Assembly: GCA_016169945.1 (NCBI GenBank) | Contig: JADLSH010000373.1 | Coordinates: 1,054,001 to 1,118,000, forward strand | Length of the DNA stretch: 64,000 nt | Direction: 5' to 3' | Origin: Trachythela sp. YZ-2020 | Taxonomy: Eukaryota > Cnidaria > Anthozoa > Malacalcyonacea > Clavulariidae | Notes under the pieces: generated by a model | Told to the model about the DNA's origin: nothing | Seen by the model: the letters and a program-made list of their open reading frames with translations, nothing else | The model's database searches: none | Program-made: the position numbers and the translations under genes | Shown: in pieces, positions 14,290 to 52,455 of the stretch | Layout: each line of letters begins with the position of its first letter | Numbering within the stretch: the first letter of the stretch is position 1

Positions 14290-14553
14290 AGTTATAATAT
14301 ATAATCGAAGATATGCAAATTGAATTAAATTAAGTTAAAGTCATTCAAAACGACGCCATTTTGAAGTTTGCATTTGCATACGTATAACACCAATGCTTCC
14401 ACTGCCTAGATCTAAATTTCCTTTTTCGTTGGTGAAAATATTGTATTTCACTATACACGAATCGCGGAAATTCGGCGCGCATCCAAATGACGCGTTCTGA
14501 GTCGGACAAAAATCGCAGTTAAAGAAAAACATGTAGCTGTGACTGGATGATTT

Positions 14554-15435: not shown

Positions 15436-15571
15436 TTAAAAGGTGTTTTGACTTTTTGAAATGTGTTTTGCTGATGTAAAAATATGTCCAAAAAACTGCT
15501 AAATGTGTTTGAAGATCGTTAAATGCGTTTTGTTTGTCTTGTTTTGTGTTTTGCACTTATGGGCCACCGTA

Positions 15572-22156: not shown

Positions 22157-22250
22157 TAAATAATTCAACCAAGGTAGAGTATTATACGCTCATGTAGAAA
22201 CTGATACAATCCCTGGAAATTATACCTTTTCAAACTACATAGACATGTAA

Positions 22251-23014: not shown

Positions 23015-25656
23015 TAACTAGTTAGTTTACTGTCCAAATTTTATTTTGATGCGAGACAGGGAAGATGTTCTGATTTAGTCTGTAAAGTTCGGCTTTTTCA
23101 GTCCACAAATGTGTTCCTGCCTGTGGTTCCTTAGTGGCTCGGATGACCACGTTAATGGAGGTCCCATCTCCAATGGGGACGTTAAAGAACCACTGTGGAC
23201 GTAATAAACCCTGGCCGTGACCTGCCAGTGTCAGCAAGAGGTTGGCTTACTGGATTAGTGCCAGACAGGCCCAGACTACTGGTGAATGAGACATCTAACA
23301 TGTATGACAGCCAATAGTCGAATGGAACAAATACCCAGCGCTGAATGCACAAGAATTTGCGAATGTGTAGACCTTTCAGGCCGATCATCCCCGTATAGTC
23401 CATTATAGGGAGTACCCCCGGGGCTTTAAGATTAATTCAGAGAAGAGCCTTTTTATCCTGCCAGGTTCAGCAAGACCAGGTTCTTTATTTGATATACAGC
23501 TTTAAAAAATATCCTAACCAGGTTCAAAACTGTTTCTTTGAATTTATAGAGCTTCTGAAACCTGGGGGAAAAACAGAATCATTTGGCCGACCTGCAGGCA
23601 CTGCTTCTATAAAATCATTTATCCAATACAAAACTGGAAAAGATGGAAAGCCACAGAAGAGTCAATTGGGCAAGGGGAAATCAAAGAAGAATGACAAAGG
23701 AAAAGATATCAATGAAGAAGTCGTAATCTCTATTGGGTTAATGCAGTGGGACCCAAATGAGGAAAATCTCAAGGAAAAGAGAGGAAAAAGACTAGCCCTG
23801 CGTGTCCCCAAAACTGCTAATTACAAAACACTGTTGAGCAAGGCTTCAGAAAAGTGGCAAGATATACCCTTCTACTTGAAGATGGTCAGGAAGCCATTTT
23901 TGTGCCGGGGTCCAAACCAAAGGAGTTTTTCACACTCAACCGATACAAGGAAGAGCTTTTGAAAGACTACAAGAGAATAACACTATTTCTTTGTACTTGT
24001 GATGACCATGATGCAAGAGATTGTGTTAGTGAAGATTGTAGTGAGGGGAAAAGAGGCATTGACAACAGTGATAACAATTATACAATGTCACCTGTTAAAA
24101 AGGCAAAACCTGAAAATCATTTTGCCTTGCAGGATAGACCTGGACCTTCAGATCTAGGACAATCCTGCTCTACCAGTGATGATAAAGGGTCATGGTTTAT
24201 GCAGGAGGAATTGTCCAGAATGTTTCATGATGACCAATGTGATTATGAGAGCCCTATTCATGATGATAACCTGTCAACAGTGTGCACTGCCAAATCAGAT
24301 GAGACCACTTCATCAGTGACAATCACCAATGGAGTTGATGTACTGAAGGCCTTGAACGAAAAGGTTGTTGTTGGTGACTCTCTATTTATTGTGATCAGAC
24401 GTGGCACATCATTAAATAGAGCCCTCACTTTATGGCAAAGGGCAACATCAAAAGTACCTGCTGAGCATCTACTAAGAGTAAAATTTGTTGGCGAAAATGG
24501 CATCGATAGCGGAGCCTTGGCACAAGAATTTTTTGCCATCACAATGGAAAATATAAAGAAACAATTTTTTCCTGATGGAAGCCCTCTTTATTCTACGAAT
24601 GATCTCCAAAAGGGCAACTACCAAGCAATTGGACAAATTGCTGCTGCAAGCTTGGCCCAGGGAGGACCTGCTCCTTGCTTTTTAGCACCATGTGTGTATG
24701 ATAGTTTAGCTTCTGGTAAGGACACAGAATTCACTACTGCAAGCACAGATCTAGAGAAAAATTTGACAGCAGCCGAGCAAAATGTTTTGCAGCAGATCAA
24801 GAAAGATGTTAAACAACACACAGACCTGATCCTTGAACATGGTTATACTGGGCCAATCAATGAGACCCATGTAGATTCAATTGTAGCAGCAATGGTTGTC
24901 AGCATGCTGAGCAGAAGGTCCCTGGTCATAAAGCAAATCAGAAATGGAATGGAGTTGTATGGTTTGACTGATCTAGTAACAAAGCATCCCCAAGCCGCTA
25001 GGAGTTTGTTTGTCTTAGGCGAACAGAAACCAGTAGATGCAGACTATCTGTTTTCTTTAATCACACCAGAGTACTCCCCTGAAGGCAGCTCACGCCGCTC
25101 CACCGAAGAGCATGTCATGGACCATTTCCAAGACTTCATCTTCAGTATGGAAGATTCAAAGGTTACTGGATATGCAGAAGCATTGGCCTGGGACTGCACT
25201 GATGGCAATGAAGATGATGATATTGACTTTTTTAAGGATCAAAGTAATGACAGGTATGTGGAAATAAGTATATTAATTTTAACAGCAGACCCACAATAAT
25301 GCTTATGCAAATTAGGCCAAAACAATTTGCCTAAATTGTAACCAGTGCAAGATAATAATTGACATTGTTATTTTCAAAATTATTTCAGGTTCGTCTCACC
25401 AGAAATGACTCCAGCAGCTGTTATGGGATGGCTAACCGGGCAAAAACATAGAGATATGGTCAACACAATCCCTATCTATGTCAAGTTTGACCATGAATGC
25501 CAGCAGAGAAATCCCAAACACACGGTGTGCTTCCCTTCTGTTGGAGCGTGTGGCAGGCAGATAACGCTTCCAGTTGTCCATATGTCAAGTGCAGATGGTT
25601 TTCAAAATGTATTTTTGTTAGCCTATTGCAAAGGACAAGCCTTTACTATGTCATAA

Positions 25657-26913
25657 TGCAAGTTTACATCATAATTCAGACATTTACAGGTCTCAGTTTG
25701 CTTATGCTTATGTATTTATAATTGTTCCTGTTACATTCATTTTAGTTCAAACATAAAAAGATAAAAGTAATGAACATGACTTCTATAATTGATTTCAATC
25801 TTGGACAAAAAAATTGTTTAGCCAAATTTTGTTAATCAATCAGTTAAGGCCTTTTACAAATGGCCATCTAAATTCAGCCGGTCTAAATCATTTATATAAC
25901 CAATAACCAAGGTAATAAAAACGTAAAAGTTACATTCAAGTAATAGTTAAAGGTAAATATTATAATATGTTACCGAACGGACAAAAATGACAACTCTTAT
26001 TAAAGAGCATTTTGTTAGCGTTCAAAGTTGTAATTTAGTACAGCTTTGGTATGCAGGCTAAAGTGTCATTCTTAATGCAAACGAACTCGAAACAAAAGCT
26101 CTGATGAACTAAATAATGGGAATAGTTGTTTGGAGTGGCCAGAATTAAGATCCGCATTTGTACTAGGCCTAAGGTACATTAATTGTAATATAACATTACT
26201 TTTTCACAGTTTCAATATATATAAAACTTTGTTTATATTAATTTTGTAAGATGATACTAGCAAGTTTGTTGTTAAAATACCCGAAATGTAGCTCACTTGG
26301 ACAGCCACCAAATTTGTGCACAGCATCCAGATACACAGCAACATTGTTGGGAATCTTAGTTATTGGATCTTGTTAAGTACAACCATATTACTTTTCGGTT
26401 TTCGATTTAGAATAAATGTTTGTCATTGTTGAAGCAGTTTTTATTCTATTTGGGGCTTAGTTCATACACAATTATCAGTTCTGGTCTGCCTGATCAATGA
26501 ATTCCTTTTTCTAGTCCATGAATGGTTGCTTTGCAGCATGATATGTGAAAAAGGAATTTTGAATCAACAATGCATTGCAGTTCACTATTTCCAACTCCCA
26601 AGAGCAACCTTCTTTGACATACAGGCATCAATGGCTCGTGGTATCATTAGTCAAGAACAGTATGATGCTTTGAGCTCACAACAGTGACCCCAGTTGCATG
26701 TCAAACTATACAAATGAAAACCAAAACTGAGCATGTGTAGTTTGCAATCTCAGAACACTTCAGTAAGCATGAGGCATCTTGCTGTCAATGAATACCATTG
26801 CCAGTCACTAAAGCGTAAGAATGATAAAATAATTGCAATGACTATTGTCTCATTTCAAAATGTTTATCACAAGCATTAGAATGGAGAATTGGCAGCACTT
26901 TCCTCTGATATTC
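25657..26913. other. Intergenic region between the convergent genes of IS3EU copy 2
   Basis: About 1.25 kb, AT-rich, without a recognisable protein. It corresponds in position to 10970-12046 in copy 1. Confidence 0.5.
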
Positions 26914-28056
26914 CTAAACTGCAACTTCTAGTATCCTCTCATAAAGACCAAGTGCTTCCCTCCAGTGTGTAGGTTTCTGAAGGTCAAGGTTAGAGATAAC
27001 ATATTGAAAGTACTTGTGGTACTCATTTGCCACATCCTTTTCTATTAAGTGACATTTGGCGTAGTGTAGCTCATTTTCAGGAACTGTAATCATCCAGTTG
27101 TCCATACCACCATGATTTTCTGGTAATGAGTATATTGCATTTGGCCTACCAGACACTGTATCATGCCGAGACTTACGAATGTAGTGTGTATTCCAATGCT
27201 CTAGAGACTGATCTAAATCAGCTTGAATCAACCCAGAGAAGCAGAACCATAAGCACTCCTTCTGGAGTGGATCACATGTGTTTAGCTTTCCCCTGTCTGC
27301 TAAGTCTTTAAAAAAGTTCATCCACCAAGTGCTCCAGTTTTTTCTCAAGGAAGACCACCATGCTTCGATTCTTTGATTTCTCGGTGAGGGTACATATACA
27401 TGTGAATTGGGGTCATTGACAAAAAAACAGTGGATACCAGCCATGGTGCCATTCTCTGTTCCAAGGTCAGTATAAAGATGGCTGGGGGCAACCACCAAGC
27501 TCACTAACAGTATCCAGTAGTAGGCAGCAATGTTATCTGGATAGCTATTTGATCGACTCACATATAGCCAAATTACTTTTCGACTAAACCCATCAATACA
27601 CCCATGGATGGGGAATCCATAAGGGGACAACTTGTCGTAGCCATCAGCATGCCAAGCACTATTCGGCCCAGGGTTGTGATACTCTCGCCTTCGCAGCCTA
27701 TGTGCTTTTCTCCTCTGGACACCTTCCGGATCCAACTCCAACATTAGCTACTGTACGACAATTCGTGGGACAATCATACCATTGAGCCTGAGCGAATGCC
27801 ACATGGATCGATAACCAACACAAGAATGAGGCCCGTCAAGAAGCACCTCGATAGCTTGCCGTACTTGTTGGACGTCAAAATCTACGTTCTTTCTCCATAA
27901 ATTCATGGCTTTCAGCCGCCTTTTCAAAGTACTCAGACTTATTTCTATACCATATTCTCTAGATAACAATCCCCTGATTTCGTCATATTGATATCCTTGG
28001 TAAAATAGGTATTCTATCGCTTCTTCTTCGTAATCTTGCACATTATTGTCCGCCAT
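26914..28056 (-). pseudogene. IS3EU transposase of copy 2, one nonsense codon
   Basis: From ATG at 28056 the first 102 codons hold the helix-turn-helix (ISLSTLKRRLKAMNLW) and VGYRSMWHSLRL. An in-frame TAG at 27748-27750 follows, and the same frame continues to 26914 with the core: WHADGYDKLSPYG, IHGCIDGFSRKVIWL, YTDLGTENG, NQRIEAWWSSLRKNW and HYIRKSRH. All three catalytic acids are kept. Alignment with copy 1 is continuous across the stop (VSRSAVEVLLREMDPEG versus VPRIVVQ-stop-LMLELDPEG), so a single mutation and not an intron explains it. The start codon lies only about 20 bases from the right array. Confidence 0.88.
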
Positions 28057-28074
28057 TTTGTATCTCTGAGTTTG

Positions 28075-28382
28075 TTGAGTTTTGCCGTGAGTTTGTTGAG
28101 TTTTGCCGTGAGTTTGTTGAGTTTTGCCGTGAGTTCGTTGAGTTTTGCCGTGAGTTTGTTGAGTTTTGCCGTGAGTTCGTTGAGTTTTGCCGTGAGTTCG
28201 TTGAGTTTTGCCGTGAGTTCGTTGTGTTTTGCCGTGAGTTCGTTGAGTTTTGCTGTGAGTTCGTTGTGTTGTGCCGTGAGTTCGTTGAGTTTTGCCGTGA
28301 GTTCGTTGTGTTGTGCCGTGAGTTCGTTGTGTTTTGCCGTGCGTTTGTTGAGTTTTGCCGTGAGTTTGTTGAGTTTTGCCGT
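28075..28382 (-). repeat. Right subterminal 21-bp array of IS3EU copy 2
   Basis: About 14-15 copies of the 21-bp unit in the opposite orientation to the left array, starting just upstream of the transposase ATG. The outer end is cut off at 28382. Confidence 0.88.
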
Positions 28383-29439: not shown

Positions 29440-31443
29440 GAATCTTTCCAATGGTAAAGAGCATTTAAGGTCACAGGCGCGGTAAACTTGAGACGTTCAT
29501 GATATGCGAAACTCGCCAGTATGCCAACTCAAATATATGTAACTATAAGAGGTCTATGTGTTTAAATAGCGTTTGCACGAATTCCACAATACAAGATTAT
29601 AGAATTACACATGCAGTCTTTCTAATGGCATACAGCGATTTGCGGCGCAGACTTTGTAAACTTAAGATTGTAAGGATTGGTCAAGTAACAATAGCGCGCC
29701 TTTACATATGCCAGATTATAGAATTACATGGCGTTGATATACATATTCAAGACGCTTGCTAATTGTGCGCAAATTCAACACGTACGATTGCTTTCGACCT
29801 CACGCATGTGTTACGCTCTTTCCAATGGTATATACTGCATGTAAGGTCACAGGCTCGGTAAACATGATATTCTCATCTTATACAAGATTTGCCACGATGC
29901 GAATGCAAATATATGTCACAACTATAACACATCTATGTTTAGATAGACTTTGCACGAATTCCACTCATGCGATTGCTTTCATATTCAAGTATGTTGTACA
30001 GAATGTCCTAATCTTCCTCGTGGTCTACAGCGATTTGTGGCGCACGCTTAGTAAACTCAAGATTTCAAAGATTACTCAAGAGACAATAACGCTCGTTTAC
30101 ATATGCCAGATTATATACTTATATTGCGTTAATATAAATATTCATTACGCGCTTGCGCAAATTCAACACATACGATTACTTTCGACCTCGCGCATATTGT
30201 ACATAATTTTACGCTCTTTCCAGTGGTATACTGCATACTATGCTGCATGTAAGGGTACAGGCGCTTTAAACTTGAAATTTTCATGATATACAAAATTTGC
30301 CACTATGCGAAGTCAAATATATGTCACAACTATAACACATCTATGTTTAGATAGAGTTTGCACGAATTCCACTCATGCGATTACCTTCAAAATCAAGCAT
30401 ATTGTACAAAATTGTGCAATATTTCTAATGGTGTACAGCGATTTGCGGCGCAGACTTTGTAAACTCAAGATTTTAAGGATTACTCAAGATACAATAGTGC
30501 GCGTTTACATATTGCAGATTATACAATTACATATATGGCGTTAACATAAAGATTTAAGGCACGCTTGCGTAAATTCAACAAATACGATTGTTTCTGAACT
30601 CAAGCATATTGTATAACATTTTACGCTCCTTCCAACGATATATAGGGTCACAAACGCAGTATACTTGACGTTTTTATGATATACCAGATTTGCAATTATG
30701 CGAACACAAATATGTATCTAAACTGTACGGCGTCCATGTTTAGAGAGCGTTTGCACGAATTCCACTCATGCGATTGCGTTCATATTCAAGTATGTTGTAC
30801 AGAATGTTCTAGTCTTTCTCGTGGTATACAGCGATTTGCGGCGCAAGCTTCGTAAACTCAAGATTTCAAAGATTACTCAAGAGACAATAGCGCTCGTTTA
30901 CATATGCCAGATTATATAATTACATTGCGTTAATATAAATATTCAATACGCGCTTGCGCAAATTCAATACATACGATTACTTTCGACCTCGCGCATATTG
31001 TACTTAATTTTACGCTCTTTCCAGTGGTATACTGCATACTATGCTGCATGTAAGGGTACAGGCGCTTTAAACTTGAGATTTTTCATGATATACAAGATTT
31101 GCCACTATGCGAAGTCAAATATATATCACAACTATAAAACATCTATGTTTAGATAGAGTTTGCACAAATTCCACTCTTGCGATTACCTTCAAAATCAACC
31201 ATATTGTACAAAATTGTGCAATATTTCTAATGGTGTACAGCGATTTGCGGCGCAGACTTTGTAATCTCAAGATTTTAAGGATTACTCATGGTACAATAGC
31301 GCGCGTTTACGTATTGCAGATTATACAATTACATATATGGGTTAACATAAAGATTCAAGGCACGCTTGCGTCAATTCAACATATACGATTGCTTTTGAGC
31401 TCAACCATGTTGTATAAAAACGTACGCTCTTTCCAACGATATC
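29440..31443 (+). repeat. ~400-bp tandem repeat array, plus orientation, part 1
   Basis: Five diverged units of about 390-410 bases. Landmarks recur in order: ctctttccaatggtatac, a ggtcacaggcgc region, atctatgtttagatag-tttgcacgaattcca, gtacagcgatttgcggcgca, and a TTAAGGATTACTCAAG-type word. The landmark near the ctatgttta word falls near 29546, 29940, 30342, 30735 and 31150. Small frames seen within the units are not coding; they simply follow the repeat. Confidence 0.85.
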
Positions 31444-35879: not shown

Positions 35880-38626
35880 ATAATATTGGAAAGAACATAA
35901 CATTTTCTACAAAATACTTCTGATTGTGTACACATTGTATGTGTTTCCTTCGCACAAGGACGTGAAGAAGACATAATTATGCTTGCGCCGTTCTATTGCA
36001 ATATATCATTAACAAGATTGCAAAATTCTGTACAATATACTTGAATTTGAAAGGATCCGTATGTATAGAATTCGCGCAAAAGCTATCTAAATACAGATGT
36101 CTTGTAGTTGTGACATATATTTGACTCCGCACACTTGCAAGTCCCGTATTGACAATCGTACGTCTATCGCGCCGATAGTGCCGTTATATGCTGTATATCA
36201 TTGTAAAGAGCGTAACATTGCGCACAATCTGCTTGAGGCTAAAAGCAATCCCGTCTTGAATATTTATGCTACCAGCATGTAATTATATAATTTGGCATAT
36301 GTAAACGCACGCTATTGTCGCACGAGTGATCTTTAAAATCTCATGAGTGGAATTCCTGCAAAGGCTATCTAAACATAGATGTATTATAGTTGTGACATAT
36401 GTTTGACTTCGGATATTGGCAAATCTTGTATATAATGAAAATATCATGTTTACCGCTCCTGTGATCTTACATGCAGTATACCATTGGAAAGAGCGTACAA
36501 TTCTGTACAATATGCGTGAGGTCGAAATCAATCGTATGTGTTGAATTTGCGAACAATTAGCAAGCGCGTCTTGAATATTTATGTCAAGGCCATGTAATTC
36601 TATAATCTGGCATTTGTAAACGCGCGCTATTGTTACTTGACTAATCCTTAAAATCTTGAGTTTACAAAGTCTGCGCCGCAAATCGCTGTACACCATTAGA
36701 AATATTGCACAATTTTGTACAATATGCTTGATTTTGAAGGTAATCGTATGACTGGAATTCGTGGAAAATCTATCTAAACATAGATGTGTTATAGTTGTGA
36801 TATATATTTAACTTCGCATAGTGGCAAATCTTGTATATCATGAAAATCTCAAGTTTAAGCACCTGTACCCTTACATGCTGCATAGTGTGCAGTATACCAC
36901 TGGAAAGAGGCTAAAGACCGTAAAATTATGTACAATATGCGCGAGGTCGATTGAATGAAGATTGAGTATTGAATATTTATATTAACGCAATGTAATTATA
37001 TAATCTGGCATATGTAAACGAGCGTTATTGTCTCTTGAGTAATCTTTGAAATCTTGAGTTTACGAAGCTTGCGCCACAAATCGCTGTAGACCACGAGGAA
37101 GACTAGGAAATTCTGTACAACATACTTGAATATGAAAGCAATCGCATGAGTGGAATTCGTGCAAAGTCTATCCAAACATAGATGTGTTATAGTTGTGACA
37201 TATATTTGCATTCGCATCGTGGCAAATCTTGTATAAGATGAGAATATCATGTTTACCGAGCCTGTGACCTTACATGCAGTATACCATTGGAAAGAGCGTA
37301 ACACATGCGTGAGGTCGAAAGCAATCGTACGTGTTGAATTTGCGCACAATTAGCAAGCGTCTTGAATATGTATATCAACGCCATGTAATTATATAATCTG
37401 ATATATGTAAACGAGCGCTATTGTCTCTTGAGTAATCTTTGAAATCTTGAGCTTACGAAGCTTGCGCCGCAAATCGGTGTATACCGCGAGGAAGACTAGG
37501 ATATTCTGTACAACATACTTGAATATGAAAGCAATCGCATGAGTGGAATTCGTGCAAACGCTCTCTAAACATGGACGCCGTACAGTTTAGATACATATTT
37601 GTGTTCGCATAATTGCAAATCTGGTATATCATAAAAACGTCAAGTATACTCCGTTTGTGACCCTATATATCGTTGGAAGGAGCGTAAAATTTTATACAAT
37701 ATGCTTGAGTTCAGAAACAATCGTATTTGTTGAATTTACGCAAGCGTGCCTTAAATCTTTATGTTAGCGCCATATATGTAATTGTATAATCTGCAATATG
37801 TAAACGCGCGCTATTGTATCTTGAGTAATCCTTAAAATCTTGAGTTTAGAAAGTCTGCGCCGCAAATCGCTGTACACCATTAGAAATGTTGCACAATTTT
37901 GTACAATATGGTTGATTTTGAAGACAATCGCATGAGCGGAATTCGTGCAAAGTCTATCTAAACATAGATGTATTATAGTTGTGACGTATGTTTGACTTCG
38001 GATATTGGCAAATCTTGTATATAATGAAAATCTCAAGTTTGCCGCTCCTGTGATCCAGTATACAATTGGAAAAAGCGTAACATTCTGTACGATATGCGTG
38101 AGATCGAAAGCAATCGTATGTGTTAAATTTGCGCACAATTTGAATTAGCAAGCGCGTCTTGAATATTTATGTCAAGGCCATGTAATTTTATAATCTGGCA
38201 TATGTAAACGCGCGATATTGTTACTTGACTAATCCTTAAAATCATAAGTTTACAAAGTCTGCGCCGCAAATCGCTTGATACCGTTAGAAAGACTGCACTA
38301 TGTTGTACAATATGCTTGATTTTGAAGATAATCGTATGAGTGCAATTCGTGCAAACGCTCTCTAAACATAGACGCCGTACAATTTAGATATATATTTGAG
38401 TTCGCATAATTGCAAATCTTGTATATCATAAAGACTTCAAGTTTGTGACCCTACACCCCATATATCGTTGGAAAGAGCGTAAAAGTTTATACAATATGCT
38501 CGAGTTCAGAAGCAAATGCATATGTTGAATATACGCAAGCGTGTCTTGAATATTTATGTTAACGCCATGTAATTCTATAAGCTGCAATATGTAAACGCGC
38601 GCTATTGCATCTTGAGTAATCCTTAA
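35880..38626 (-). repeat. ~400-bp repeat array, minus orientation, part 1
   Basis: About seven units in reverse orientation (gtgcaaa-ctatctaaacatag landmarks near 36080, 36365, 36765, 37165, 37555, 37945 and 38355). The orientation change at 35700-35880 is the centre of the giant inverted repeat. The array is cut at 38626 by the Kolobok insertion. Confidence 0.85.
38623..38626 (+). repeat. TTAA target duplication of the Kolobok element
   Basis: TTAA at 38623-38626 and again at 45733-45736. The uninterrupted repeat unit elsewhere has a single TTAA at this place (e.g. in the acaagattttaaggattact context near 30470), which confirms the insertion. Confidence 0.9.
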
Positions 38627-38860
38627 AGTGCCTATGCAACGAAAATTTCAAGTTAGAGCAAATAGCACGAAAGGAACAAGTGAACCTATTTCTTTTGATG
38701 CTAAAAGTTTCAGGGGTACTGGTTAAAAGGGAGTGTGTTTTTTTTGCTTTTGAAAACAGTAATTTTGCCTGAAATGTTAAGACACTTTCCGCTTCGCCAA
38801 ATCGAGAAACCTGGGACCATGTGACGTCATTAGTTGTGTAGAAAGCGGTAAACAAAAAAC

Positions 38861-41800
38861 ATGGCGACTCATAGTAGCGTTCAAAGAGATCGAAAAAGAA
38901 GGGTTAGTGGGAAGTTTTGCGTTGCTGGTGGTCCGGGAAACATAAGTTGTAATAATTCAAGCTTAACCGAATGTATTTCCATGCATAGTTTTCCATCAGA
39001 TGATGTTTTAAAACGAAAATGGACTCAATTTGTTCGGAAGCATAGGCATAATTTTAAGCCATCTGAAACGTCTGTGTTGTGTTCGGTTCATTTCAACAAA
39101 GATTGTTTCTCTCGTCGCTTGGATCTTCTTGAACCAGAAAAAGTTTCTGTTGAAATATCAAAGAGTAGAAGGCTGATCAAAGGCTCTGTTCCTACAATTG
39201 ACACGGCTCGGCAGATGCAAAAGCAGGATACACAAGATTTTACGTCTCGCGATAGGAGAATGATTAAGAGAAAGGTATGACGATTTTTCCTCTGTATTTT
39301 TAAATTTATTATTGCACAGTCGTTGTCTGCCCTCAGGTAGCGGCTTCATAATGGATTTATGTCAAGACTTTAAGTGCTTGCATGAAATTAAAGCCGTCCT
39401 ATATTACGTTTTAGATACTCGAAGACGAAGTGCAACAAACGTTTATGCCATCTTTTGATCACACGAACATCAGTACATGCAAATCTCCAGATGCTGATAG
39501 AACTCCTACAGCGAACTCTCTAAGCACGAATCCTCCAACTAGCTTGCCATGTATGGATGCAGCCACCACTAGCTTGATAAATATGGATGCCACAACCGGC
39601 TTTCTAGATACAAATACTGCAACAGACAACGTAGTGGAAGAGACCATTTCAAATCAATCTAGCACAGGAAAGTATCAGAAAGACTGTGTACCCACACACA
39701 TTTCGTGCAAGAAGTGCCCCAAGAAACGTCTGACTATACGTCGCCTTCAAAAAAACAATAGCTATCTGAGAAGAACAGCACAAGAACTAAGAGATCGTTT
39801 GAATAGGGTAAGAATAAACAAGTGTCATGTCAAAATGACCACTGCACTGTTGAGGGAAAAGTATTTATATTAATTGGTTAACGAGACTATCTTATCATGC
39901 CATGTGTCTGATTAACCCATTGAGCTGCAATGCACTACACCTTGTTATTTTACTCTGTTAATGTCAGATGATTTTACTCTGCTATTGCCAGAAACTTTTT
40001 ATTGACAAGGGGAGCTATTAGGCGTTAATGATTTAATATAACTATTTGAATGAGCTTACACCCAAAATGTTTGCAATACCATTGCACTTATACTGTAGGT
40101 CTGTAATGGTGATACTACTGAAACTTCAGCTGATGAATTTGAAGATGAGAAAAGTTGTGAACCATCAGATGCCAACTATTTTCCAAGCCAAGAGGAAAAT
40201 ACTGCAAGTGAGCCAGACACCTGTACAGAAGAGGGGGGTTGCACTGATGATGAAGATCCAAACTGGAATTTTGAAGAGGCGTTTATAGAGGAACCTGATG
40301 ATGATGATGAAGATAATGAAGATCCAGTTATAGAAAGTAAAAATACAGTAAGGTATGTATGCTGTAATGTTGTCAGCATTGTGTAATGACATTGGTCAGC
40401 TCTTAATGGGGTTTGTTCTAAACTGCTTAGGATAAACAATTTTTCCTTTCCCCTCTTGTTCATGTTTGTACTTCCCCCTCTGATACTGTAGTTCCCTTTC
40501 ACCAAGGTTATTTAAATATATTTTCCTCCTTACAGTAATGGAGGAACCCTTCTTCCCTTACAATATGTCAATCTCCTTAGTTTTATCCCAGATGAATATT
40601 GTGTAAATACAGCAGTAGCACATGCATAATCATAGGCGTATGGGCACAACTTTATGTGGGGGGGCAGCCAAAAATTTGCCCGAATTTTAAAACTTGCCCG
40701 AATTCGATAACGACATCTTCATAACAATAATAACCACTATTTTGTTGTCGACGGGGGGGGGGAACGCAAGGGTAAAAAATTTTCTGGGACTTATTAAGTC
40801 CAAAACCCGGATTTTAATCTTAAAAACCATAATTTTTTAAACAATACGCAAACCAGATATATAAACAGTTGTGTAAATTATAAAGTTCAGACAAAATAAA
40901 TCTATTTTGCCCGAATATTCGTTAACCATTTGCCCGAATTACTTGAATCTCCAAATTTTTGGGGGGGCAGGTGTCCCCCCTGCCCCCACGTCCCGTACGC
41001 CTATGTGCATAATTATTTATAAAATGATTATTATTAGTAAAATATACATAAATTGTATTCTAAATTATCACTGCATTTTTACATTTCAGGGTAGAACCTG
41101 GCACACCAGCTCATCAAGAACCAAAATTCTTGGTTTTCTACACTATGCTTTTAAATCTGTTCACAATGTTTTGCTTTCAATGCAAAACTAACAATCCAAA
41201 AGTTAGTATGAAGAGAAATGGAACAATGGTGACAGTTGTTCAAACATGCAGTCAATGCAAGAATAAACCATTTATCTGGCGAAGTCAGCCGTATGTACTG
41301 GGACGATATCCAGCTGGGAACATTCTATTCAGTTTCGCTTTGTTAATGGCTGGGGCCTCGATAAGCAAGATTCTTCTGTTATGCAGACACATGAAGCTAT
41401 CCATCATCTCAATTCGTACATTCTTTCTCCATCAAAAAAAGTTTGTCTTTCCTGCAATATTACATCACTGGGAAACATGCAGGGCCAACCTGATTGAACA
41501 GTTACAAAAATCAAAAGATGTTGTATGGAGTGGTGATGGAAGGTTCGATTCGATGGGCCATAGTGCCAAATATGGACTCTACACAATGTTTTGTTGTACT
41601 ACTTTGAAAATTGTGCACTTTGAGCTTCTCCAAGTAAGTATTTATTACACAAAAATCACTGTCTAGTATTGTATTCAAGTTGCTAATATATATAATATAC
41701 CATACAGATGCATGACTGACAGTACTCGGTAAATTGAATACAATACCAGATGATTGAACTTCAACTGAAGAAGAGGAAATATTTACTTCTATAGATGTTT

Positions 41801-43730
41801 GCTATATAGTGAAAAAATGATAGAAGTACAAATTTCCTAACAATATGGTTGCAGTCTACTGTACTATGTTCCATTATGTTCTGAAAAGGCATGTTTTGGG
41901 TTGCATTAGCTTGTTGCGTTCAAACTATTTGCACAAATGTATATCCCAATGCCACTAAGCAGCAGTGATTACCTACTGTAGATGTATAATATATTATATA
42001 TTTGCACACATCAAATATTGTTTTTTTAGGCCAATGAAGCAGGAAGTAGTCAAGCAATGGAGTTACAGGGAGCGAAACAGTGCTTTGACTTCTTGTTATT
42101 GGCAGGACTTGCAATTTCCGTATTTATTTCGGACAGGCACCTTGGCATCGCTAAATGGATCAGAGAACACCAGCCAAAAACCAGTCATTTCTATGATATC
42201 TGGCATGTTGCCAGATCGATCACTAAAAAGATGGTGAAGGCTGGCAAAAAGAAGGGTTATGAAAAAATAACCTACTGGGTGAAAGGAGTCCGAAGACATT
42301 TATATTGGTGTGCCACAAGTACAAAACAGGGCTTCCAGCAACTGATATTGGCAAAGTGGAAGTCCTTTATGATGCATGTTGCCAATAAACATACAGAACA
42401 TACAGATAGTTTGTATACAAAATGTGCTCATGATGAAATTAAGCGCAGAAAATGGATAAAGATAGGTACTAACCTACAGTGAAAAAAAACCCGGCCTCAT
42501 TTAACCCCCCCCCCCCACACACACACACACATTCATGTTCATGGCAACCAGGTTTTAACCTCATTTATATTATATACAGGAACAACAAGTCATGAAAAAT
42601 TGAAGTCAATTCTAATGAACACCAGAATTCTTAATGATGTTAAAAAATTATCTTCTGAAGCCCAGACCAGCTGTCTTGAGGGATACCATGCCACTTTAAA
42701 CTACTGGCATCCTAAAATGCTGTGCTTCTCCTGGCTTGGGACATATTGCAGGTATACTTTCAAGATAGTCTGATCAATTCAATTAAGATCATCTAGCATT
42801 AGAATAACATCACAAAGTATTATGCATGCTCCTCCCATTAGCTGGCAATGCACACTACTTTAGTATTTTATTCTGTCTAATGCCAGATGATTTTACTGGA
42901 AGAGTACTTGCATGGGTTAATGAGTAAATTTATTTATGCTGGAAGGGTGCAGAAGCAGATAAATAATACTGAGCTGCATTCGATCAGTAGTATCTAAAAC
43001 ATCTCATTTTTTCTTTGGGTTATCCTTGTAATAGAAATATTTTGGCCAGCCTCCACTTCAATGAAAACGTCAAAAGAGAAGCTCGCAAAAGAAAAGATGG
43101 GAAAATATATTATAAAGTTACTTGGCCAAAATTCAAACAAGGAGAGGAAGTTGTGAGGGAAGTTGCAGTTCCCCAAACTTATGGTATGTATATCAATATA
43201 AAAATTGTATAATTATGTGATACAGGTGACACTTGAGAATTGCACCTGCCAATTAAGCAAGTTTAATTTGGCAGAGTTTTCAAATATCATAACCATTTGT
43301 AATTGTTTAACCATTCCAGGCTATGTGTGTAATATTAGAGAAGTTTTGTTCAGTCAATCAGCCAAAGACCGTTTGAAAATACTAGAGAAATATGAGGCAA
43401 AGATACCAGATCCCCTCAACAGACAATTTGATGATAGGGTGTCGAAAGCAGAGGCTGTACAGCGCAAAGATGAAAGAAATAAACTCAGGACAGAGCTATT
43501 TCCAGCAGGTAAATGTGTGCATAATATTTTAATTAAAATATCAATGACAAACAATATTTACACGGATCATTATTTTTTTGTATTATCCAGCCAACAAGCA
43601 AGGAGAGCTCCAGTCACAGTTCAACAGTGAACAAATCAATACGCAAGGTCCACCTGCAAAGAAGAAGGCCCCGTGTTGTAGGAAATGCCACCAGCCCATG
43701 AAGGGTCATCCCCGTACCCGGTGCCCTTAG
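38861..43730 (+). CDS. Kolobok THAP-domain transposase, nine exons, intact
   Basis: Exons by GT/AG and frame: 38861-39274, 39415-39807, 40099-40352, 41090-41633, 42030-42465, 42580-42751, 43035-43183, 43320-43508, 43591-43730; total 2691 bases, about 896 residues, no stop. Exon 1 holds a THAP zinc finger (MHSFPSDDVLKRKWTQFV ... SVLCSVHFNKDCF), the DNA-binding domain. Exon 3 is strongly acidic (EEPDDDDEDNEDP). Exon 4 has CFQCKT/TCSQCK pairs and the catalytic-type VVWSGDGRFDSMGHSAKYG. Exon 5 has FISDRHLGIAKWI and FYDIWHVARS. Exon 6 has SCLEGYHATLNYWHPK, the likely glutamate. Exon 9 ends in a zinc knuckle (CRKCHQPMKGHPRTRC). It would cut and join the element at TTAA. A hAT-like MITE lies in intron 3. 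Confidence 0.9.
40631..41005. mobile_element. hAT-like MITE in Kolobok transposase intron 3
   Basis: The ends CATAGGCGTA and TACGCCTATG enclose 375 bases, flanked by exact 8-bp duplications TGCATAAT (40623-40630 and 41006-41013). The interior has repeated ttgcccgaatt words. The insertion is in an intron and leaves the splice sites untouched. Confidence 0.8.
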
Positions 43731-43971
43731 TGATGCTAGTACTGTATGACATTAATTAGATGTTAGACACTTTTGTTTTGCATGGCTCAATTCTGCCTGA
43801 GACCCCCCCCCCCTCCCTCCCCTCCCCTATGTACTGCCTGATGGTTGCACCATGAAGATCAACATTTCAAATATATTAAGCTTCAAAATCAGATGCCATC
43901 TTGATCAGACTGCTCACAAAAGACAGCTAGCCCATCGATCAAGCCCCCATGGTGGCCATGCATTCTCAGGA

Positions 43972-45422
43972 CTAAACGATCAACACAATTCCATACACCT
44001 CGGCAATTCTGGGTTCTGTTGCACTGGGCAGATGGCCACAGACAGAATTGAACCATGCATTACATTCTATTTTGTTTTCATATGTACAGTACTTGAAAAA
44101 TATATAGCATACAATATCACTCGTCGCCCTCTCTTGTGCTGTTGCATATCCTGTTCTGTTCTCTGTATAAATCCTTGTCCTTATGCTGTGGTAGATACAT
44201 GCTGGTAATGGTCGAGTGTTATCCCACCCTAAAGAGCCGCACAGCCACCTTATCAGCCATCTGTATGCTGTGGCTCTCAGGAGTCTGCAATTTAATATGA
44301 AATATATATAATAATGTATATGCAGTTTATTGTCTAAAAATTGAGGGTAGTGTACATGGAGTTGTGGCTGCAAAAGAAAATTGTTACTTACTCATTTTCA
44401 GATTTACCAGGCTGACGGTGATAACCTCTCCCTTGCTTATCTTTGAGCAATGGCGCAACAGTTGTGAGCACTGCTCTATTGGTCATAGGCCCAAAATCAG
44501 GATGTTCAGTAATGCATTTTATATTTTCACAACTGCCATCAAATCCTAGCAAATGGACAACTGGATTCACCTCTTGGCAGCATCTGTACTCAAGGGCACA
44601 ATCCAAATGTTGGTCATTGCAATGACTGCACAAACACCTAAATGAAATTAAAAGCCAAGGCTGTCTTGTTGATGAAACATTTGTAGACATACAGTACACA
44701 TACAGTAAATCTTAGTACAATCCCTCACGATACTCCAGGAAATTTTTGCCATTATTTAAAAAATACACTGCATGAAGAATTCTCTACATATTATAAAAAT
44801 CATATTCAACAAAATAAAGAAAATTAAGAGTATTTAACAAAATCAAAGTGAACTTCTATATCTTATCATATTACATTTTAATACAGGAAAGTTTTGTCAT
44901 TGGATATAAACAAAAATTCATCAAACACATGTAAGGTTTTATAAGGTTATATAAAAAGTACGTTTTAAGACTCTGTACTTTCAAGTGTATTATAAATCAA
45001 TCTTCAACCAGTTTACAACAAGACAAAGCCTTGTCAGACAATGTCAGTAGACAAAACCCATTTGTAGTTTATTTACTGTACTTTTTATAGTCCTCTGACA
45101 TATTCATGTAGAGTATTTAAGTGTATTTTCACTCTTCTTGACGACCTCACATAGGCTGAATAATATAAAATTATTAATCAAATAATACTTTTACATACCA
45201 AGATTCAACAGGGTCAGTTTTATCGTATCTTCTCTCCAGTGTTGAAGGAGATAATCCATCTTCGTCGCGCTCGTCGGATTCATCGCTAGAGGCATCACTG
45301 TCTGCCAAAGGTTCATCTTGATACGGAAGACAGATGCTTTCTACTTCGCCCTCCTGTGAAATATTCAAATCCAGCTCTTCTTCAGATGATGACCAGGGAG
45401 ATTCCGATTCGCTTTCAGTCAT
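43972..45422 (-). CDS. P2X7-ballast-like cysteine-rich protein carried by Kolobok
   Basis: Minus-strand exons 45422-45199, 44637-44392 and 44284-43972 join in frame with GT/AG borders (GTATGT, GTAAGT donors) to about 260 residues. The N-terminus is acidic and serine-rich (SSEEELDLN, DASSDESDERDED) with LPYQDEPLAD. Across junction 1 comes VESWCLCSHCNDQ ... ALEYRCCQEV, then CITEHPDF and the third-exon part LLRATAYRWLIRWLCGSLGW...LPAC. This order (C-x-C-x2-C, CC, CITEHP, TAYR..RW) is that of the zinc-binding intracellular domain of P2X7 receptors, which also occurs as stand-alone invertebrate proteins. No membrane or channel part is present. Its task in the transposon is unknown; the C-terminal stop at 43972 is the least certain border. 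Confidence 0.78.
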
Positions 45423-45732
45423 TTCGTTTATAAATTATTAAAATATGCAGATCGATTTCACAAGTGATACAGTATATATAAAAACTTGCAACCAAAAATA
45501 AACAAGGCATCGATCATGATTCATGCATACACAACCAATGACGTCACTCGCCCCAGGTTTCTGATATTTTTATGTCTAGTGTTTTTCACGAGAATTGTCG
45601 CATTTCAAACGGAAAAAAACTCACAATTCATGGACTTTTTAGAAATATTTTTTTGATCAAAATAATAGCTGCATAGTAAACTTTCTAATTCAAACGGAAA
45701 AATTGAACGGATTTTTTCGTTGCATAGGCACT

Positions 45733-46369
45733 TTAAAATCTTGAGTTTGCAACGTCTGCGCCGCAAATCGCTTTATATCGTTAGAAAGAATGCACAATTT
45801 TGTACAATATGGTTGATTTTGAAGACAATCGCATGAGCGGAATTCGTGCAAAGTCTATCTAAACATAGATGTATTATAGTTGTGACGTATGTTTGACTTC
45901 GGATATTGGCAAATCTTGTATATCATGAAAATCTCAAGTTTACCGCTCCTGTGAGCCAGTATACCATTGGAAAGAGCGTAACATTCTGTACGATATGCGT
46001 GAGATCGAAAGCAATCGTATGTGTTAAATTTGCGCACAATTAGCAAGCGCGTCTTGAATATTTATGTCAAGGCCATGTAATTCTATAATTTGGAATATGT
46101 AAACGAGCGCTATTGCCTCTTAAGTAATCCTTAAAATCTTGAGTTTACAAAGTCCGCGCCGCAAATACCTGTACACCATTAGAAATATTGCACAATTTTG
46201 TACAATATGCTTGATTTTGAAGGTAATCGCATGAGTGGAATTCGTGCAAACTCTATCTAAACATGGATGTGTTATAGTTGTGATATATATTTGACTTCGC
46301 ATAGTGGCAAATATTGTATATAATGAAAATCTCAAGTTTAAAACGCCTGTACCCTTACATGCAGTATAG
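45733..46369 (-). repeat. ~400-bp repeat array, minus orientation, part 2
   Basis: The array resumes after the Kolobok element for about 1.5 units and is cut again at 46369 by the LTR retrotransposon. The unit 46130-46369 is the specific mirror partner of the plus unit near 30250-30490. Confidence 0.8.
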
Positions 46370-46513
46370 TGTGACGCCTCCTCATGTTTGTGCATGCGGA
46401 ACTTATTTGAATTGTAAATATGCGATATAAAAGTGTGTGTGTGCGTAAATAAAGGGTGATTATTGATAAGTACGTTTGACCTGTTGGTTTCTTAAGTTGG
46501 CTTGCTCGCAACA
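46370..46513 (+). repeat. 5' LTR
   Basis: A 144-base LTR with a gatataaaag TATA-like box and an aataaa-type signal (gtaaataaagg). Identical to the 3' LTR. Confidence 0.92.
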
Positions 46514-46530
46514 TTTGGTAGCAGGAAATG
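46514..46530 (+). promoter_or_regulatory. Primer binding site region
   Basis: The sequence tttggtagcaggaaatg directly after the 5' LTR is in the place of the tRNA primer site; ttggtagcag is common in gypsy-type elements. The tRNA is not identified. Confidence 0.6.
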
Positions 46531-46556
46531 GTTTGTTAAGTTTTCGTTAGATAACG

Positions 46557-47960
46557 ATGTCGAAGGAAAGGCGAGGCCAACTAAGAGAAGAAATTGAAGC
46601 TTCTTTGGGCATTGAAAACCCAGGAGAACGCTTGACTGACCACGAAGCAAGTCCACGGTTTTCCGAATATATTGGCGATGAAATACATGTCGTAGAGAAG
46701 CTACAAACCGTAAAAGACGGCCTCAACGATATAAAGCAAAGTCAGGCGGAGTTAAAAGAAATGAACGAGCGAATCTGTCGCGATAATCGACGGTTAGTCG
46801 AACGAGTAGAACTATTAGAAGCCCGCGAGACAGAAAGCCGTCGAAGTCAAATAGACCTTGAAACCCGCTGCGATGTTCTCGAAGGTAACATTGAAAAGCT
46901 AAAGGTGGACTCTAGCCGAATCCCGGCGTTGTCTTATAAAGAAATAGAGCGTCGTGTTGAGAAGTCGAATGAGGAAATTCAAGATGTTCGTGCTAGCTTT
47001 GCCGAAAGTTTCGAACAGTTGCTTTCCGTGGTCGAGAAGCTTGATACGCAAGTGCGCTCAACTGAAACCAATTTACAATGCAAAATTGACGAAATAACTC
47101 AAGTTGGTTTATCCGAAAGCCCGATCTACGGAGAGGAAATCTACAAGACAAGACATGTTGCCTAAACAAACGAGTTCTAGTCCTGTTATCGATCTTCGCA
47201 CAGATCCACGTAACATCACGCAGAGAAAACATAAGTATTCCAAGCGCAGTGGGAAGTATTCCAAGCGCAGTTCGAAATAGCAGCTGAAATAAACGGGTGG
47301 GAAGAAGATGACAAAGCTGTTTTCTTAGCTACGGCTCTAGTTGGAAGGGCTGCACTGGTGCTGAGTAACTTGTCTAATCGTGAACGGCGGGATTATAAAA
47401 CGTTGGTAACCGTTTTGACTACACGCTTTGGAATGGCCCACCAGTCGGAGTTAGCAAGAGCTAAATTGAAATGCAGGGGAAAGAACAAAGAAGAATCTAT
47501 GGCAGAGTTGGCGGAAAGTGTGGAGACTTTAACTCGAACTGCATATCCCGACGCTTCTACAGACCTGCAAGATGTTATTGCTAGAGATAATTTCATTGAT
47601 GCTTTGCCTGACGACGATACGCGGTTAAGAATTCGCCAGTTAAGACCGCCATCTTTGCAAGTAGCTCTCGAAAATGCCATGGAGTTAGAGTCTTTCCAAC
47701 TGGCTTCGCGACACCGACAAAGATGGCAGCGTGGCTCATCGTGGAGCGTGCGCAAAGTAGAAGATACTACGCCTCCAGCTACTGCGACGAACGAAGAAAA
47801 ATCAAGCATTGAGCGTCTTGAGAAAATGGTGGATCAACTGCTGAATGAGTTAAAAGACGACCTCGGCGTTCACCGCCTCGACTTCCTTCGGTGGGTCACT
47901 GAGATGTTGGAACTGTGGTCAGTGGGGTCATTTGCAACGAGATTGTATGCACGACGATAA
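46557..47960 (+). pseudogene. gag of the Ty3/gypsy element, frameshifted
   Basis: The first 202-codon frame is a long coiled coil (46557-47165). A frame change follows near 47150-47280, where a 19-base tandem duplication (aagtattccaagcgcagt) is seen. The capsid part (GWEEDDKAVFLATALVGRAALVLSNL ... RFGMAHQSELAR ... FIDALPDDDTRLRIRQLRP) then runs to about 47860. A zinc knuckle CWNCGQWGHLQRDC lies near 47910-47955 in another frame. Structural protein of the particle; interrupted in this copy. Confidence 0.82.
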
Positions 47961-48982
47961 AGATGGGACGAAAGAGTCGTGGGAAGGAAGAGAAGACACA
48001 GGACCACGTCAACAACTCCAGGAGAAGCAGGAAACGACGAACGGTCGACTCAGAGGGGCATGGGTTGGCCGAACAAAATTTAAAGCATACCCTAACAGAG
48101 ATGTTGAAGTGAAAGCATGTGGTGGTTCACTAACTGTAGATGGTCTTATTGAAAATATCCCATGCCAATTTACGATTGATACCGGAGCTGACGTAACTAT
48201 ACTCAGTTCTCGTTTGTATGGCATGATAAACTGTGTTGATGAGTTAGAGACAATGGCAGATGGTGAAGTGCTCAGAGGTTTAGATGGGAAAAAGAATACC
48301 AGTGGCCGGTAAAGCAATTTTACGGATAGGATTGGGTGAAAACATATCAATACAAAATGTTTGGATTGCACATATACAGGAGGACTGTATATTGGGTTCT
48401 GACTTCCTGAAGAAAGAAGGTTGTATGATTGATTATCCACGCCAAGTCCTGCGAATGGGGAATACGGAAATTCCTATGCGTTCAGGTGACAAGCAAGTGA
48501 AATGCCTGCGTTTGGTTCTGGACCGGTCCGTCAAAGTGCCAGGATATACGGAGATGATTATCCCGGTCAAAGTCGAAGGACCCAGGGGGGGTTGCTTTTG
48601 GGGAACCGTGGGACCATCAAGCTGCTGTAAGAAAAACAATAAGATTATGGTCGGAAGAACATTGGTTGACTTGGAAAAAGAGTACATTCCTGTTCGTGTG
48701 GCCAACCTCACCGCCGGTAGGCAAAAGTTAAGAAAAGGATTCGAACTTGCAGTATGTGAACCTGTCGCCAGTATAACTTCCAGAGTAGCTGACCGTGGAG
48801 AGCCGCAAGAATCATTTGACACATCGTCATTACCTGCTCACTTGAAACCTCTTCTAGAAAGAACTGAGGAAGGTCTAGACGAAGAACAAACCAGGAAAAT
48901 AGCCGAAATTCTTACGAACTACCAAGATGTGTTTTCGAAAGGGACAGGGGGACATTGGTCGTGCGACAGGCGCCTACCATAA
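47961..48982 (+). pseudogene. Protease region of pol
   Basis: The segment FTIDTGADVTILSSRLY (near 48170-48220) has the DTGA active site of a retropepsin. After a frameshift near 48284 the frame continues with ILGSDFLKKEGCMIDY, the typical end of the protease domain, and on to a linker. Another frameshift near 48930-48980 leads into the RT frame. Confidence 0.85.
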
Positions 48983-49784
48983 GATCGATACCGGAAACGC
49001 ATTGCCCTTGAAACAAGCACCTAGACGACTTCCAATTGCAAAGAGACAAGAAGCCGAGAAGGCAATTGACGAGATGGAGAAACAAGGTATCATCGAACCA
49101 TCGACCAGTCCATGGAGTTCGCCAGTGGTTCTTGTGAGGAAGAAAGATGGAACAACACGGTTCTGCGTCGACTATCGACGACTGAATGACGTCACGCGAA
49201 AGGACTTATTTCCGTTGCCTCGTATCGACACCACTTTAGATGCCTTGAACGGCTCTCGTTGGTTTACCACTTTAGATCTAAAGAGTGGATATTGGCAAGT
49301 GGAACTGGATGCCGAGGCCAAGGAGAAGACCGCGTTTTCCTTTGGAAAGGGACTTTGGCAGTTTACTGTTATGCCATTCGGCTTGTGTAATGCCCCGGCG
49401 ACATTCGAACGGCTTATGGAGACGGTGCTTGCGAAACTCCCGTGGGAAACCTGTCTGGTGTATCTCGACGACATTATTGTCCTTGGGAAAGATTTTGATG
49501 AACAGCAAGAAAATCTTCGACAGGTGTTCGACAGGCTGCGATGCGCTGGTCTTAAGCTGAACCCGAAGAAGTGTAGTTTATTCAAAACCCAGGTGGTCTA
49601 TCTGGGGTATGTGGTTACTAGAAATGGGATTAAAGCTGATCCAGAGAAGGTTGAAGCGATAAGATCCTGGCCAGCACCATTAAACGTTCACGAACTCCGT
49701 AGTTTCCTGGGACTATGTTCCTATTATAGGCGATTTGTTTTAAATTTCGCGAAGATTGCTCAACCCTTACACGTCTTGACATAG
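48927..49784 (+). pseudogene. Reverse transcriptase of the Ty3/gypsy element
   Basis: The classic gypsy RT motifs are complete: SPWSSPVVLVRKKDGTTRFC, DYRRLNDVT, FTTLDLKSGYWQV, FTVMPFGLCNAPATFERLM, the YLDD active site in CLVYLDDIIV, and FLGLCSYYRRFV. The frame ends at an in-frame TAG (49782-49784) that separates it from RNase H in the same frame. Confidence 0.9.
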
Positions 49785-51659
49785 AAGAATGTACCGTTTC
49801 ACTGGGACGAGGATTGTGCGCAAGCGTTTGAATCTTTGAAGCAACACTTGACCAACACTCCAACACTGGCATACCCTGATGTAAATCAACCTTTTGTTTT
49901 GGACACGGATGCGAGCAACATTTCCATTGGTGCAGTACTCTCGCAAGTTGTAAATGGAGACGAACATCCGATTGCTTATTTTAGCAGAACACTTAGCCGA
50001 CCAGAAAAACAGTATTGTGTAACAAGAAAAGAACTGCTAGCAGTTGTAAAAGGTGTTGAACACTTTCACGCTTATCTGTATGGAACCCATTTTCTTGTGC
50101 GTACCGACCACTCATCCCTGCAATGGCTTCTTAGTTTCAAGAATCCTGAAGGACAAATGGCGCGATGGATTCAAAAACTGGGACAATATGACTTTGAAAT
50201 CAAGCATCGAAAAGGGAAACTGCACGGAAATGCAGACTCGCTCTCAAGAAGACCCTGTGACGAAAATGGATGCGGATACTGCGAAAAACGGGAGATAAAC
50301 GAATTGCAGGGTAGAGAAGAAGAATCTGCACATGACTTTCCTGGCCCGATGGCTAAAATGGCGAGAACGACTGTTTCCGAAGCGGCAAGCGAAGAGCTTG
50401 GACCACAATTTTCCAGAGAAACTCAACTAAAAGATCCCGATATTCGGATAATCGTGCAATTGATGGAAGAGTCCGACGTAAAGCCAGCATGGCAGGAGAT
50501 TTCGTCATATAACCTTGCAGTAAAGGTGTATTGGGGACAGTGGAGCTCTTTACAAATAATCGAAGGGAAGCTGTACCGATGCCTCGATACTGTGCCCCCC
50601 GAGATACCACGGAAACAGTTAGTTGTTCCTAAGGAAAGTCGAGTGACTGTATTACAGAAATTGCACAATAGCAGGACTGGAGGGCACTTTGGAGTGGCGA
50701 AAACACTCGGGAAAGTGAAAGAACGATTTTTCTGGCCGCACTGCAGACGTGATATAGAAGAATGGTGTAAGAGCTGCGAAAAATGCGCTTCGCGGAAAGG
50801 ACCCAGAAGAAGACCGAAAGGACCTATGAAACAGTTTAATGTGGGAGCTCCGCTAGAAAGGATAGCGATTGATGTTCTTGGTCCTCTACCCACTTCGGAA
50901 AAAGGGAACAAATATATCCTGATTGTCGGTGATTACTTCACTAAATGGGTCGAAGCGTACCCTTTAGAAAACCAGCGGGCGGAAGTTGTAGCAGAGGTAC
51001 TTGTGAAGGAATTCATTTCAAGGTTTGGTGTTCCACTTCAGCTGCACTCCGACCAAGGGAGAAATTTTGAGTCTTCTCTATTTTCAGAAGTTTGTAACCT
51101 GTTGGGGATAGAAAAGACGAGAACAACTGCCCTACATCCCGAATCCGACGGTATGGTCGAAAGATTCAACAGGACACTAGAAAACCAATTGGCTATATTT
51201 AGCGAGCAGCACCAAAAAGACTGGGACGAGCATATTCCATTATTATTGATGTCATATCGCTCCGCAGTTCATGAAAGCACAAGACAAACGCCTGCAAACC
51301 TAATGTTCGGACGAGAATTAAATTTGCCAATTGATCTTTTGTATGGAAGACCACTGGAGGAGAGATCCGTTGATATTGATGATTATGTCACAAAACTGCA
51401 AAGAAGAATGGAGAATACGCACGAATTTGCGCGTATAAGAATTCGGGTTGCGAGCGATAGAATGAAGAAAAGGTACGACGTGGGAGTATCTCATGACATT
51501 TTTCAGCCTGGTGATTTAGTTTGGCTCTTCAATCCAAAACGCAAGAAAGGACTGTCCCCGAAACTTACGTGCGACTGGGAAGGACCATACCTTGTCATGA
51601 AGAGGATCAATGAATTACTATATAGAGTGAGAAATCAACACGCGAGAAACCACGCGTAG
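49785..51659 (+). pseudogene. RNase H and integrase of the Ty3/gypsy element
   Basis: The frame is open from just after the TAG to 51659. RNase H: FVLDTDASNISIGAVLSQ, RKELLAVVKGVEHFHAY, VRTDHSSLQWL. Integrase: the zinc-binding H...H and CKSCEKC, then catalytic acids in IDVLGPLP, LHSDQGRNF and MVERFNRTLE. A GPY-type tail (CDWEGPYLVMKRI) ends the protein, which would insert cDNA. The domain itself is intact; only the upstream nonsense codon and frameshifts disable it. Confidence 0.9.
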
Positions 51660-51737
51660 TCCACCGGAATAGACTTTGGCGATATTTTGGGAAAACGGAC
51701 TAAATTGTTATATATTATTCGGGACGAACAGCTTCAT

Positions 51738-51750
51738 AAGGAGGGGGCAG
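51738..51750 (+). promoter_or_regulatory. Polypurine tract
   Basis: The purine-rich aaggagggggcag immediately before the 3' LTR is the plus-strand primer site. Confidence 0.75.
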
Positions 51751-51894
51751 TGTGACGCCTCCTCATGTTTGTGCATGCGGAACTTATTTGAATTGTAAAT
51801 ATGCGATATAAAAGTGTGTGTGTGCGTAAATAAAGGGTGATTATTGATAAGTACGTTTGACCTGTTGGTTTCTTAAGTTGGCTTGCTCGCAACA
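51751..51894 (+). repeat. 3' LTR
   Basis: Identical over all 144 bases to the 5' LTR, followed by the ATAG duplication. Confidence 0.92.
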
Positions 51895-52455
51895 ATAGTA
51901 TGCAGTATACCACTGGAAAGAGCGTAAAATTATGTACAATATGCGCGAGGTCGAAAGTAATCGTATGTGTTGAATTTGCGCAAGCGCGTATTGAATATTT
52001 ATATTAACGCAATATAAGTATATAATCTGGCATATGTAAACGAGCGTTATTGTCTCTTGAGTAATCTTTGAAATCTTGTGTTTACGAAGCTTGCGCCACA
52101 AATCGCTGTAGACCACGAGGAAGACTAGGACATTCTGTACAACATACTTGAATATGAAAGCAATCGCATGAGTGGAATTCGTGCAAAGTCTATCTAAACA
52201 TAGATGTGTTCTAGTTGTGACATATATTCGCATTCGCATCGTGGCAAATCTTGTATATCATGAAAATATCATGTTTACCGCGCCTGTGACCTTACATGCC
52301 GTATACCATTGGAAAGAGCGTAACATTCTGTACAAACACATAGACCTCTTATAGTTACATATATTTGAGTTGGCATACTGGCGAGTTTCCCATATCATGA
52401 ACGTCTCAAGTTTACCGCGCCTGTGACCTTAAATGCTCTTTACCTTTGGATTATG
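51895..52455 (-). repeat. ~400-bp repeat array, minus orientation, outer end
   Basis: About 1.4 units. The last ~115 bases (52337-52450) are the near-exact mirror of the first ~115 bases of the plus array (29446-29560), and the unit before matches the second plus unit (29880-30240). This outer pairing defines the giant inverted repeat. Confidence 0.85.

Follow-up and report, generated by a model that had tools for sequence, protein, structure and literature searches.

The stretch of DNA analysed here, hereafter the window, comprises 64,000 nucleotides of contig JADLSH010000373.1 (positions 1,054,001 to 1,118,000, forward strand) from the anthozoan Trachythela sp. YZ-2020. Between its positions 38627 and 45732 lies what we identify with high confidence as a complete two-gene Kolobok DNA transposon, in which a transposase gene faces a convergent second gene, KolX, encoding a protein with a zinc-stabilised ballast fold of the P2X7 type (Table 1); this confidence applies to the identity of the element and not to the role that we ascribe to KolX below. 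The ends of the element, the target-site duplication, both open frames, the ballast domain and its cysteines can all be read directly in the sequence. A scan of positions 38000-46500 for TTAA-flanked ends returned this pair as its sole result, and by a crude equal-base estimate a perfect TTAA-flanked 19-bp pair would be expected in the window with a frequency of only ~1e-6 by chance. The termini read AG...CT, in agreement with the 5'-RR ... YY-3' ends of Kolobok elements, and the TTAA duplicated at both flanks is the Kolobok target site. When the two flanks were joined, they matched another unit of the surrounding satellite at 91% over 376 bp, which represents the empty site. An earlier sequence-only reading of this DNA had placed the ballast gene inside a transposon, and the perfect inverted pair with its TTAA duplications bears this out.

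Table 1. Features of the Kolobok element and its immediate surroundings (window positions).
Feature	Position	Strand	Details
Satellite hosting the Kolobok	36337..38622, resumes at 45737	.	units of ~400 bp
Left TTAA target-site duplication	38623..38626	.	end scan
Left terminal inverted repeat, AGTGCCTATGCAACGAAAA	38627..38645	+	19 bp, perfect match to right end
Transposase gene	38861..43730	+	nine exons, 896 aa, no internal stop; splice sites checked
Transposase exons 1-5	38861-39274, 39415-39807, 40099-40352, 41090-41633, 42030-42465	+	
Transposase exons 6-9	42580-42751, 43035-43183, 43320-43508, 43591-43730	+	
KolX gene (type A)	43972..45422	-	exons 45422-45199, 44637-44392, 44284-43972; acidic N-terminus and P2X7-ballast domain
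Right terminal inverted repeat	45714..45732	-	pairs with left end
Right TTAA target-site duplication	45733..45736	.	end scan

The three exons that the sequence-only reading had assigned to KolX join in frame exactly where it had placed them; both introns are bounded by GT/AG, and the joined exons form a single open frame of 260 amino acids. Pfam detected the P2RX7_C family on residues 60-203 (24.9 bits, barely exceeding the curated cut-off of 23.5) as the sole match in these 260 residues, with no P2X channel domain, in accordance with the earlier description of a ballast protein that lacks a channel. All seven cysteines that coordinate zinc in the P2X7 ballast are present in the window protein and in 51/51 of the rows aligned for the tree described below. 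A search of predicted proteins with window KolX gave 38 matches among 426 candidates at E <= 0.001 (best 1.1e-69); the species-named relatives were mostly cnidarian (Montipora, Actinostola, Oculina, Acropora, Dendronephthya, Rhopilema and others), accompanied by amphioxus, an anchovy and a frog. An alignment of the window protein with 19 of these 38 relatives reaches from the initial methionine to YATAQER, and its 20 invariant columns include the seven cysteines. The CITEHP and TAYRW segments and the cysteine pattern noted earlier line up with the database relatives. There is no sign of a recent capture of the window copy from a host gene, as judged solely from the sequences of database relatives, since these are KolX-like over their length. 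Window KolX is ~50 amino acids longer at its C-terminal end than most aligned relatives, so its natural stop has probably been lost, or the final splice has been missed or misread. A scan of viral contigs for KolX gave 7 pattern matches, none of which was confirmed as a relative.

Window KolX, used as a single-sequence query against PDB chains, gave no match up to E 1, and a search with a profile of the KolX alignment recovered four distinct P2X7 sequences over residues ~475-593 (E 0.0025 to 0.092). The ballast fold is established as a prediction for a close relative, the database protein P0001, which was modelled in place of the spliced window protein. Window KolX shares with the P2X7 ballast (PF20478) the seven zinc cysteines, the equivalents of R546, Y550 and R578 and, as modelled on P0001, the fold. 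It differs from P2X7 in being without a channel and in carrying A, I, Y and T at the positions of H547, C573, R574 and K583; the guanine-nucleotide site of P2X7 (R546, H547, R574, R578, K583) accordingly reads R, A, Y, R, T, an incomplete set.

The transposase gene of the element looks intact. Its exon 1 encodes a THAP domain (53.2 bits in Pfam), and two core exons resemble the Mutator-like family PF20700 at scores under the Pfam cut-off. Motifs in the predicted protein include D503 (SGDGRFDSMGH), D570 (ISDRHLG) and DIWH at residue 591; both D regions are common to six other loci with which the window transposase was compared, and the catalytic E was placed, by eye only, in CLEGYHA (from residue 712).

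The pairing of a Kolobok transposase with a ballast protein, and the idea that P2X7 arose from it, were published in 2022, so the window element is a further clear example rather than a discovery. In the part of that paper available to us, Kojima and Bao (2022, PMC9587614) describe KolX as the second protein of the Kolobok lineage Kol0, similar to P2X7 residues 476-595, with a ballast fold and seven conserved cysteines; they record the lineage from vertebrates, annelids, cnidarians and sponges, see in NANOR a possible domesticated KolX, and propose P2X7 to be a fusion of a P2X4-like gene with KolX. The published marks of Kolobok (TTAA, 5'-RR ends and a C/DxxH motif) recur in the window element as the TTAA duplication, the 5'-RR/YY-3' ends and a C/DxxH transposase, and the second gene for KolX that characterises Kol0 is present. 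Kol0 KolX and window KolX both show ballast similarity and seven cysteines, and no distinguishing feature of kind was found against the available description. The word THAP was not found in the main text of PMC9587614. For the published claim that the signature domain of an immune receptor comes from a DNA transposon, the element supplies an independent example whose ends, target site and two genes are all delimited. Literature searches on Kolobok, KolX and P2X7 brought up PMC9587614 and one other paper, PMC9319628, in which each term is mentioned once; a search on P2X purinoceptor 7-like in cnidaria returned nothing.

Ballast genes have also been regarded in another way. In the available text of Rump et al. 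(2020, PMC7016195), stand-alone ballast proteins are described across animals, their capture by a P2X4-like gene is inferred, and two markers are linked to ballast genes across invertebrates; the stem "transpos" was not found in the searched portion of that text. NANOR and other stand-alone ZCD proteins resemble window KolX in being short ballast proteins without a channel and are treated there as host genes, whereas window KolX is transposon-borne. If the ballast gene were a host gene, as in that paper and as the appearance of stand-alone ballast genes as ordinary genes in cnidarian listings might suggest, a Kolobok would have inserted into or beside it and the linkage would be accidental. 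The window KolX gene is, however, enclosed by both inverted ends, and the same convergent pairing recurs elsewhere in the genome. A P2RX7_C search of the assembly (578 Mb in 396 contigs; 750 candidates) found at least 150 ballast places, every listed one above the family cut-off, compared with a reported figure below ten for each species in the available text of PMC7016195; the window's own KolX gene is not among the 150 listed, and the search of 14 named control genomes found no ballast place. From the first 26 listed places we selected 20 by hand (loci L009-L028), skipping six, and searched the surrounding 10 kb of each for matches to the window transposase and to the transposase piece of locus L010. 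A Kolobok transposase match (E <= 1e-5) lay within 5 kb of the ballast gene in 17/20 loci, as opposed to 0/4 control stretches at E <= 10, and the two genes were convergent in 17/17 of the matched loci, as in the window (orientation by eye from coordinates). Locus L009 has a THAP piece only, in divergent orientation; L024 and L025 gave no transposase match, and L024 is nonetheless enclosed by TTAA ends. In view of the enclosing ends and the recurrent pairing, accidental linkage to a host gene is extremely improbable. The 20 loci match the protein of a second kind of KolX, type B, at 61-100%, far better than they match window KolX (type A), and look like type B; for such loci, recurrent linkage to Kolobok is established.

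Several observations weigh against this reading of the element and its ballast gene. Enclosing TTAA ends were found in 5/20 loci (L023, L024, L026-L028) and in none of the other 15, in a scan of all 20 for ends of 16 bases with <= 2 mismatches; both ends often do not fit into 10 kb. A survey of stand-alone ballast genes for flanking Kolobok ends and TTAA was what the sequence-only reading had proposed. L009 and L025 lack both a convergent transposase piece and TTAA ends that enclose the gene, the 20 loci are not a random sample of the 150 listed, and Pfam had no match for the type B transposase piece that served as a query. Foldseek with the model of P0001, which has a long disordered N-terminus, returned no hit reaching E 0.001 and gave TM-scores of 0.41-0.44. 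With regard to the role of KolX discussed below, copies poor in transposase keep KolX too; when selection on KolX was tested in four related elements (L023 and L026-L028), the changes were too few for a decision. Since the surveyed loci look like type B, the window is the only locus that links type A to Kolobok. The earlier proposal that mobile elements have spread the ballast domain is partly supported, by the recurrent transposase linkage of type B and, for type A, only at the window.

As to what KolX does, it would act as an accessory transposition factor that has been retained since it is helpful to the transposase. It would probably be a zinc-stabilised module within the transposition complex that binds protein or nucleic acid, and would fill the slot held by nucleases or a helicase in other Kolobok lineages. 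We lean towards such an accessory role, with modest confidence, because the convergent pairing has been kept with transposase segments that are only ~26-36% identical, and because sister Kolobok lineages bear a nuclease or helicase as their second function (available text of PMC9587614). Nucleotide or DNA binding as the means by which KolX acts is put forward as a tentative possibility. KolX might instead be idle in transposition, either as a neutral passenger or as a protein directed at the host (e.g., against silencing). Such a passenger would agree with a 138-residue ballast frame that is without stops in 30 of the 150 listed places (counted by eye), and with four loci that keep such a frame, the TTAA-ended L023 and L026-L028, in which only a short transposase piece was found, an N-terminal one in L026-L028. 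It is rendered rather unlikely by the convergent pairing, which holds for two very different KolX types and across the divergent transposase segments. The elements at L026 (3546-7573), L027 (3581-7535) and L028 (3568-7490) are ~4 kb long and have identical TTAA + AGGTAGGTTACAGTCG ends.

The relation of both KolX types to P2X7 was examined in a tree of 51 rows, consisting of window KolX with 14 of its 38 type A matches, 17 of the 20 loci, 10 type B database rows and 9 P2X7 sequences. L009, L017 and L024 are outside the tree, having no single frame with the motif; the type B database rows are 10 of 120 listed matches (11 were chosen, and P0141 dropped out, presumably for want of the motif), and the P2X7 rows are 9 of 120 listed matches, all from mammals, with no outgroup, so that the tree is unrooted. 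A dividing branch with support of 100/97 separates type A (the window and its 14 relatives) from type B (17 loci and 10 database rows) together with P2X7. P2X7 forms one clade inside type B beside the database row P0056 (99/88) on a stem of 2.02, and because this stem is long the precise point of attachment is unsure. H547 occurs in 27/27 type B rows, 17 of them loci of this genome, in contrast to its reported absence from invertebrates in the available text of PMC7016195; C573 occurs in 26/27, and both residues are missing from window KolX and all 14 type A relatives. The main addition to the published account is that type B, rather than the window copy, is nearest to P2X7 in this tree; the recurrent convergent Kolobok linkage of the type B loci in this genome is a further one.

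The sequence-only reading had suggested that a transposon might be the source of the P2X7 domain and had called for a phylogeny of transposon-borne and P2X7 ballast. The tree fits this idea, already published by Kojima and Bao, inasmuch as type B groups with P2X7; the window copy does not. A transfer to P2X7 from Kolobok KolX is consistent with the tree and is not proven by it, the P2X7 rows being mammalian only, the stem long and an outgroup absent. Transfer in the reverse direction, from a P2X7-like receptor into the transposon, would be compatible with an unrooted tree that leaves direction unfixed and with the H547 and C573 common to type B and P2X7; we nevertheless consider it very unlikely, as P2X7 is a single clade attached within type B, and as typical P2X7 was not found in agnathans or sharks while ballast domains are found in sponges and cnidarians, according to the available text of PMC7016195.

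Upstream of the ballast exon, a regular expression located a C-x-C motif (CSCRGxCLR..GR..CPCK) in 11/20 loci (for example, L010 at 3598, L013 at 3539 and L018 at 6436), and an RG-rich frame lies upstream of the type B ballast exon in L010, L018 and L026. The motif is of a kind known from DNA-binding CXC proteins. Two open reading frames with the motif gave no Pfam family, and it occurs in 0/278 database proteins, the type B search being limited to proteins of <= ~241 amino acids. The motif and the RG-rich frame are possibly the N-terminal exons of type B KolX. Speculatively, the P2X7 tail may have come from a type B KolX with such upstream C-x-C and RG-rich exons, in which the ballast would initially have been part of a DNA-bound transposition factor bearing H547, a scenario that we hold to be doubtful at present. 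If a type B donor is correct, H547 of the guanine-nucleotide site was already present in transposon-borne ballast. As this one genome has no fewer than 150 ballast places and two or more KolX types, one of which is close to P2X7, the questions of where the P2X7 tail came from and what KolX does become testable.

Other repeats share the window with the Kolobok element. The satellite with ~400-bp units occupies positions 29612-31435 as well as 36337-38444, and both of its orientations occur within the window. A Gypsy-type long terminal repeat element at 46368-51905 has 157-bp end repeats that are 97% alike and carries reverse transcriptase, RNase H and integrase domains; nesting of this retroelement in the Kolobok was rejected, as the inverted ends place it outside, in the same satellite. 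Two copies of an apparent two-gene mobile unit, in which an integrase-core gene (rva_4, 115 and 101 bits) is convergent with a HECT-like gene, lie at 9263-15481 and 20463-28382. HECT was matched at 38.7 bits in the first unit, and the corresponding frame of the second is without a Pfam match and similar by eye. Each unit is bracketed by inverted minisatellites, with repeat units of 19 bp and 21 bp.
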